A stretch of DNA of 64,000 nucleotides from positions 1-64,000 of the forward strand of contig NZRL01000132.1 of the NCBI GenBank assembly GCA_002696205.1. The letters run 5' to 3'. The stretch is from Rhodospirillaceae bacterium (lineage in GTDB: Bacteria > Pseudomonadota > Alphaproteobacteria > Rhodospirillales > Casp-alpha2). Positions within the stretch are counted from its first letter, which is position 1; each line of letters opens with the position of its first letter. A program made the translations under genes and the position numbers. Shown one piece after another: positions 1,242 to 2,530 of the stretch. The notes beneath the pieces are model-generated. The model was not told where the DNA came from. It was given only the letters and a program-made list of their open reading frames with translations, and made no database searches.

Positions 1242-2096
1242 ATGGAAAAAATATCCGAGAACAAATCCTTCGGCGGCCTGCAAACGGTCTGGGAACATCA
1301 ATCCGACATCTGCAGCTGCCCCATGCGGTTCGCGGTCTATACCCCGCCGGCCCTGGCCGACGGTTCCGCCGACAAGCCGGTGCCGGTGCTGTGGTGGTTG
1401 TCCGGCCTGACCTGCACGGAAGAGAATTTCACCGTCAAATCCGGGTTCCAGCGGTATGCCGCCGAACACGGCCTGATGGTGGTGGCCCCCGACACCAGCC
1501 CGCGCGGCACGGACCTTCCCGGTGAGCATGACGCCTACGATTTCGGCTCGGGCGCCGGATTCTACGTCAACGCCACGCAATCGCCCTGGCTTGAGCACTA
1601 CAACATGTACAGCTACGTGACCGAGGAACTGCCCGACGTCGTGTTCAACGGCATCGGCGGCGGCGACCGCGAACGGCAGGGCATCTTCGGCCATTCCATG
1701 GGCGGGCACGGGGCGCTGGTCATCGCGCTGCGCGAACGCCGGGCCTTCAAATCGTTGAGCGCCTTCTCCCCCATCGTCGCGCCGTCCGGCGTGCCCTGGG
1801 GGGAAAAGGCGTTTTCCGGATACCTCGGCGACAACGTCGACGCGTGGAAGGAATTCGACGCCACGGAACTGGTTAAATCCGGCCATTATTTCGCCGGCGA
1901 TATCCTGATCGATCAGGGCACCGCCGACCAATTCCTGGACGAACAGTTGAAACCGCATCTGTTCGAGGCGGCCTGCAAGGAAGTCGATCAGCCCTGCACG
2001 ATCCGCATGCAGGACGGCTACGACCATTCCTATTTCTTCATCGCCAGCTTCATGGCCGACCACATGGCGCATCACGCCAAGGCGCTGAACGGCTAA
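1242..2096 (+). CDS. fghA: S-formylglutathione hydrolase
   Basis: WWLSGLTCTEENF, GHSMGGHGAL nucleophile elbow, DHSYFFI C-terminus. Confidence 0.93.
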   Translation: MEKISENKSFGGLQTVWEHQSDICSCPMRFAVYTPPALADGSADKPVPVLWWLSGLTCTEENFTVKSGFQRYAAEHGLMVVAPDTSPRGTDLPGEHDAYDFGSGAGFYVNATQSPWLEHYNMYSYVTEELPDVVFNGIGGGDRERQGIFGHSMGGHGALVIALRERRAFKSLSAFSPIVAPSGVPWGEKAFSGYLGDNVDAWKEFDATELVKSGHYFAGDILIDQGTADQFLDEQLKPHLFEAACKEVDQPCTIRMQDGYDHSYFFIASFMADHMAHHAKALNG

Positions 2097-2139: not shown

Positions 2140-2170
2140 AAAGAAAAAGGCCGGCCCAACCGGACCGGCC
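2140..2170 (-). terminator. Rho-independent terminator
   Basis: Minus strand GGCCGG-TCCGGTTGGG-CCGGCC followed by TTTTTCTTT. Confidence 0.6.
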
Positions 2171-2325
2171 CGAGTTCAGGGAGGAGGGAAGCCGTGGACC
2201 GGGCGCTTCGGCCCGATCATTTGGCTGTGGTCGTCTGGCGGATGGCGCGAAAATGAGGTTCCGTCGCCTAAGCTGTTGTCCCAGCAGCTGAATCCGCAGA
2301 CGCCACACGTAAAACCTACCACCCC
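2141..2325 (-). ncRNA. Candidate structured small RNA (boundaries approximate)
   Basis: 15-bp stem with two 1-nt bulges (2226-2242 with 2293-2307) enclosing two sub-hairpins; a second hairpin GATCGGGC/GCCCGGTC; single-stranded CCCTCCTCCC; GC-rich hairpin then TTTTTCTTT on the minus strand. Confidence 0.45.
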
Positions 2326-2400
2326 CACAACCAAAAACAAGATGACCAAAAGTCATATAACCGTAGGTAATAGGTTGCGGTTTTTCACCCAGAACACGAA

Positions 2401-2418
2401 CCCGCGGAATTCCGCGGG
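2401..2418 (-). terminator. Perfect 18-bp palindrome CCCGCGGAATTCCGCGGG downstream of tRNA-Gly; possible terminator or 3' processing hairpin
   Basis: Exact palindrome read directly; only a short T run follows. Confidence 0.4.
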
Positions 2419-2456: not shown

Positions 2457-2530
2457 TGGAGCGGGTAGCGGGAATCGAACCCGCACGTCCAGCTTGGGAA
2501 GCTGGCAGGCTACCACTACATCATACCCGC
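2457..2530 (-). tRNA. tRNA-Gly(CCC), CCA encoded
   Basis: Reverse complement GCGGGTATGATGTAGTGGTAGCCTGCCAGCTTCCCAAGCTGGACGTGCGGGTTCGATTCCCGCTACCCGCTCCA folds as cloverleaf; loop TTCCCAA. Confidence 0.95.

Follow-up and report, generated by a model that had tools for sequence, protein, structure and literature searches.

The window analysed here, a 64,000-nucleotide stretch of DNA from a marine Rhodospirillaceae genus, carries an fghA-like esterase gene and a tRNA-Gly(CCC) gene, between which a real, independently transcribed small RNA (sRNA) gene very likely lies on the minus strand, as judged from conservation and synteny (Table 1). The preliminary description had proposed a candidate structured sRNA with an anti-Shine-Dalgarno (anti-SD) tract at 2141-2325. 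Genus-wide synteny, a promoter-like block, a terminator and an open anti-SD tract strongly back this proposal. The minus-strand fold of that interval was retained and its 5' limit was revised: the RNA most likely starts near 2307, not 2325, because positions 2325-2308 belong to the -10 region of a putative promoter.

Table 1. Features at the sRNA locus (positions of the whole window).
Feature	Position	Strand	Remarks
fghA-like esterase gene	1242..2096	+	convergent neighbour outside the sRNA; Pfam PF00756; in 8/8 genus genomes
Rho-independent terminator hairpin and U-rich tail	2140..2171	-	from prediction and alignment; GC-rich hairpin 2171-2148
sRNA gene, ~167 nt	2141..2307	-	from predicted start at closing-stem base to end of terminator U-tract
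Single-stranded anti-SD linker	2172..2193	-	CUUCCCUCCUCCCUGAACUC; predicted unpaired; CU-rich tract at 2188-2179
Hairpin 3	2197..2218	-	GATCGGGC-CGAAGC-GCCCGGTC, further closed by GCC/GGC
5' domain, ~82 nt	2226..2307	-	closing stem 2307-2293/2242-2226; hairpins 2289-2271 and 2268-2244; invariant GCUGNUGGGACAACAGCUUAGG; genus-specific
Putative promoter	2311..2340	-	-35 TTGTTT (2340-2335); -10-like GGTAGGTT (2320-2313), GATAATTT in relatives
Conserved promoter-upstream block	2335..2374	-	CCTATTACCTA..GGTTATATGACTTTTGGTCATCTTGTTT; putative activator/repressor site
tRNA-Gly(CCC)	2457..2530	-	upstream neighbour on the same strand, outside the sRNA

The promoter was assigned from alignment conservation and position only, and a strict sigma-70 consensus scan called none at the sRNA. 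The spacing of the TTGTTT-like element and GATAATTT/GGTAGGTT would put the start at the base of the closing stem (~2307). The conserved block just upstream contains overlapping dyads (GTCATATGAC in relatives; ATGAC-N5-GTCAT at 2356-2342, its centre ~42 bases before the predicted start) and resembles a regulator site. It occurs once per genome, only at the sRNA locus, and for this reason no regulator could be named from other sites. Closer to the tRNA, a terminator-like perfect hairpin (CCCGCGG-AATT-CCGCGGG, 2401-2418, minus strand) without a strong T-run follows tRNA-Gly, and a similar inverted repeat is seen in genome G003.

We then considered the fold of the RNA. The fold of the minus-strand interval exceeds chance: z was -4.7 against dinucleotide shuffles for 2141-2325, -4.3 for 2307 to ~2137 and -4.5 for the 5' domain alone, for which 0/300 shuffles were equally stable. 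As the preliminary description had it, TGTGGCGTCTGCGGA pairs with TCCGCCAGACGACCACA over 15 bp with two 1-nt bulges, and this closing stem encloses AGCTGCTGGGACAACAGCT and GGCGACGG...CGCGCC in a three-way-junction shape; downstream of it come hairpin 3, the unpaired CU-rich CCCTCCTCCC and the GC-rich hairpin with TTTTTCTTT. One detail changed: the inner hairpin at 2289-2271 is present, its best fold being GCUG-GGACAA-CAGC, and the UG/CA pairing given earlier is an alternative to it. With 2325-2308 included, the fold program paired GGGGUGGUAGG with the CU tract, a masking that is probably an artefact of including promoter bases.

Folded singly, all seven homologues gave the closing stem with its two inner hairpins, hairpin 3, the open CU tract and the terminator; z ranged from -3.2 to -5.0 over the whole RNA and from -3.2 to -5.2 over the 5' domain. 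The CCCUCCUCCC stretch is invariant among them, and its unpaired probability ranges from 0.75 (in the RNA of the window) to 0.99. The consensus structure comprises 48 pairs, with 93.5% of cells paired versus 33–49% when partners were slid and 92.3% after column-wise shuffling (13 of 500). The covariation that the preliminary description had suggested looking for was thus found in part: among the seven sequences, four pairs over the whole RNA, all in the 5' domain, changed on both sides, but the excess over column-wise shuffles was small. Covariation therefore backs the fold modestly, given that only seven related sequences were available. The register of the closing stem differs between lineages, being CGUCU/AGACG with bulges in the window and G003 and CUU/GAG with an internal loop in the others, and pairing is maintained despite these changes on both strands.

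A nucleotide search of 61 relatives returned near full-length homologues in seven of the eight genomes of the genus (75–90% identity) and none outside it. All seven occupy the same slot, between a convergent fghA and an upstream tRNA-Gly(CCC) on the same strand. The eighth genome (G004) has an intact fghA and an intact tRNA-Gly ~75 bases apart, with no sRNA; in G021, from another genus of the family, the two genes are likewise adjacent and the sRNA is absent. The gene pair therefore looks older than the sRNA, which would have been gained in the genus or lost in G004. Mean pairwise identity was 35% in the spacer after the tRNA, 86% from the upstream box to the -35 element and 64–67% in the remaining promoter, then 79% in the 5' domain, 71% in hairpin 3, 93% in the terminator and 40% in the 3' flank. 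The anti-SD linker was 100% identical over its own columns in the seven genomes, with one inserted A in five. As read from this alignment, the profile is that of an independently transcribed RNA gene.

Some further matches were discarded. The blast match in G054 covers only 33 bases of the 5' stem, with no surrounding sRNA, and was put down to chance; matches of the R1 model across the family align mainly over the terminator and CU module, several of them being mmgR or SorX-like RNAs. The plasmid collection searched gave no match. Two observations concern the surroundings of homologous loci. In other genera of the family (L107, L119, L126), a response-regulator-receiver-like frame sits between fghA and tRNA-Gly(CCC), the slot of the sRNA here. 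Near the homologous locus in G001 (L003, 2616-2711, plus strand), a sub-threshold L2-Alphaproteobacteria ribosomal protein leader was scored (28.6 vs 37.8 bits).

When Rfam was searched with a permissive E-value, nothing credible matched the 5' domain. Exact occurrences of GCTGNTGGGACAACAGCTTAGG among 84,980 species genomes came to four records, all Rhodospirillaceae/Rhodospirillales MAGs taken as known genus members. A covariance model of the domain (R2), run on 317 genomes of the order, recovered the seven members of the genus plus a single further match, in G059. This match falls within the coding sequence of a MurJ-like protein (517-aa frame), has neither anti-SD nor terminator, and was rejected, so that no credible homologue of the domain was found outside the genus in these 317 genomes or in the exact-core scan. 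The GCUGNUGGGACAACAGCUUAGG block is invariant in the seven homologues. Its conservation goes beyond the need of its 4-bp stem and therefore suggests a second contact site.

The 3' third of the sRNA reads CCUCCC-UGAAACUCGGGCC-terminator, the module of alphaR8/mmgR (RF00519) sRNAs, whose pairing partners are Shine-Dalgarno regions. In the Rfam scan that the preliminary description had recommended, run at a permissive E-value, the sRNA gave only sub-threshold matches, led by mmgR, SorY and SorX; RF00519 scored 29.7 bits in the window and 24.4-29.3 in the homologues where listed, under the gathering cut-off of 41. In addition, 8/8 genus genomes carry a true mmgR (50–53 bits), located elsewhere. 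Across these eight whole genomes, the pattern CCTCCC-N(2-6)-ACTCGGGC occurs at 18 sites (8 mmgR, 7 sRNA, 1 further sRNA-like site in G003 and 2 beside tRNA), versus 1 site for the reversed-pattern control. The sRNA therefore has its anti-SD/terminator module in common with mmgR, presumably through descent or fusion, and is nevertheless a gene of its own. This independent match of the 3' end also agrees with the earlier assignment to the alphaproteobacterial trans-acting sRNA type. In G003, two more CU-core sRNA-like sites were seen ~40 kb from the sRNA (L048, G003:C16, 3421-3599 and 831-967, minus strand), reading CCUCCCUGAAACUCGGGCGG-terminator and CCCCCCUGAAACUCGGGCGG-terminator; both have SorY-like sub-threshold scores and the first an mmgR-like one.

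The above findings led us to a model that we consider probable, namely that the locus encodes a ~167-nt trans-acting, Hfq-dependent anti-SD repressor with an alphaR8/mmgR-type 3' module and a genus-specific 5' domain. The sRNA would be transcribed on its own, and its expression is probably controlled by a DNA-binding regulator that recognises the ATGAC-N5-GTCAT dyad next to the -35 element, on its upstream side. The open CCCUCCUCCCUGAAACUC tract before the Rho-independent terminator would act as the alphaR8/mmgR-type module: together with Hfq, the sRNA probably anneals to the Shine-Dalgarno region of its target mRNAs, whose translation would be blocked. The 5' three-way junction probably lends the RNA stability and exposes the invariant hexaloop GGACAA and strand CUUAGG, which would serve as a second site of contact, with either RNA or protein. 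From analogy and anatomy, anti-SD repression in trans with Hfq appears the most likely mode of action. An hfq gene is present in 8/8 genus genomes; the Hfq dependence could be wrong, since NfeR1, a close analogue, is reported to be Hfq-independent. In a target search covering 156 orthologue pairs drawn from 400 kb each of the complete genomes G002 and G007, duplex energies were no better than those of controls with the core kept and the flanks shuffled. No target is claimed, as the top energies fell within the range of these controls, and the CU core matches many SD sites.

Other explanations were weighed against this model. The position of the sRNA between two genes, with a terminator at its end, would fit nothing more than a stable hairpin or terminator region at the 3' side of tRNA-Gly or fghA that has no role in trans. 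This is very unlikely: the U-tract serves the minus strand only, a separate conserved promoter-like block stands between the tRNA and the sRNA, fghA and tRNA-Gly are adjacent without the sRNA in G004 and G021, and a plain terminator would require neither a conserved 82-nt junction nor an open CU tract. That the 5' domain encodes a peptide, making the RNA a leaderless mini-mRNA or a dual-function RNA, we hold to be extremely improbable. A 12-codon frame (GTG GCG ... GCT TAG) is open there in 7/7 homologues and starts near the predicted transcript start, but no Shine-Dalgarno sequence precedes it. Each of the four sense codons that vary shows amino-acid changes (S/L, A/V, S/L/F, A/D), and the codons that do not vary are fixed even at third positions, a constraint at the RNA rather than the protein level. 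Coding was therefore rejected, and the conserved peptide that the preliminary description had asked about was not apparent in the seven homologues.

Two readings give more weight to the 5' domain. It is conceivable, if on balance doubtful, that in this genus an anti-SD tail of alphaR8 type was fused to a new structured 5' domain acting as a sensor or binding platform of its own (a protein- or RNA-binding hexaloop GGACAA with CUUAGG) and controlling activity or target choice. We judge it unlikely that the 5' domain is itself the functional part, by protein binding or as a second antisense seed, with a 3' module captured from an mmgR-like gene and serving mainly as terminator and Hfq-docking end: the anti-SD linker is conserved still more strictly and is predicted open in every homologue, even though the domain is specific to the genus and GCUGNUGGGACAACAGCUUAGG is near-invariant beyond the needs of its stem. 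Finally, the 3' module common to the sRNA and the resident mmgR would allow the sRNA to be a sponge or decoy: by imitating the CU-rich core of mmgR/alphaR8, it would titrate Hfq or an RNA partner, or compete for one of them. Sponging of alphaR8 sRNAs is documented in Caulobacter, where it is performed by CrfA (PMC12559287). That sponge, however, has complementary G/A-rich sequence, whereas the sRNA bears the CU-rich core of the regulators themselves, so that it would be bound by such a sponge instead of sponging mmgR, and we find this role improbable.

As a trans-acting anti-SD repressor, the sRNA would bring Rhodospirillaceae into the range of anti-SD sRNAs, which are known from Rhizobiales, Rhodobacterales and Caulobacter. 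Its origin is traceable, with one site, seven of eight species that have it and an eighth that does not. The data suggest that it was built modularly: the tail with anti-SD tract and terminator is conserved, and the 5' domain is particular to the lineage. It is a wider question how anti-SD sRNAs achieve specificity although their core matches a general ribosome-binding motif, and an additional conserved domain makes this question accessible to tests.

Among known RNAs, 6S RNA (RF00013) has no match at the sRNA locus and is found once, elsewhere, in 8/8 genomes, and the Rfam search of the sRNA and its homologues gave no match to SRP, tmRNA or RNase P, in agreement with the preliminary description, which had set all four aside. 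SorY and SorX (RF02651, RF02784) show a weak 3'-end resemblance, at 22.8 and 18 bits far under their cut-offs of 111 and 46.6. The CcsR, or cuckoo, RNAs of Rhodobacter (CIN1 locus) belong to the anti-SD type and have a CU-rich motif and a hairpin resembling a terminator, and the sRNA is like them in these respects. CcsR RNAs exist as four homologous copies that share a transcript with a DUF1127 protein (PMC10253847), whereas the sRNA occurs once, between fghA and tRNA-Gly, with no DUF1127 gene among the five neighbouring proteins scanned and the tRNA, and without the several modules of the CIN1 type.

NfeR1 (alphar14) of Sinorhizobium pairs through CCUCCUCCC with the translation start of ntrB, reportedly independently of Hfq, and has a conserved regulator-binding block upstream of its promoter (PMC10746234). 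The sRNA has the identical unpaired CCUCCUCCC and a comparable block, but NfeR1 consists of three hairpins each exposing CCUCCUCCC, whereas the sRNA has a single CCUCCUCCC and a three-way junction. The NfeR1 block is an LsrB box, TGCA-N6-GCAT, which the upstream box of the sRNA, with its ATGAC-N5-GTCAT dyad, did not match. By the features tested, the sRNA falls outside RF00519, alphar14 and the cuckoo family. In the alphaR8 sRNAs of Caulobacter (SisA-D), an internal UUUCCUCCCU core pairs with the region ahead of the start codon, assisted by Hfq (PMC12559287). The core expected of alphaR8/mmgR RNAs is single-stranded and lies between a weak hairpin and the terminator; at that place the sRNA has an open CU tract that agrees with UUUCCUCCCU in 8 of 10 letters (CCUCCUCCCU), with unpaired probability 0.75-0.99. 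The sRNA resembles these alphaR8/mmgR RNAs (RF00519, named 'suhB' in Rfam) in its hairpin before an open CU-rich anti-SD core (UCCUCCCU shared), its CCUCCC-Nx-ACUCGGGC pattern, its short linker with a ACUCGGGCCG end and its GC-rich terminator with a U-tract; it differs from them by the extra ~82-nt 5' three-way junction, which lies outside the 77-position RF00519 model.
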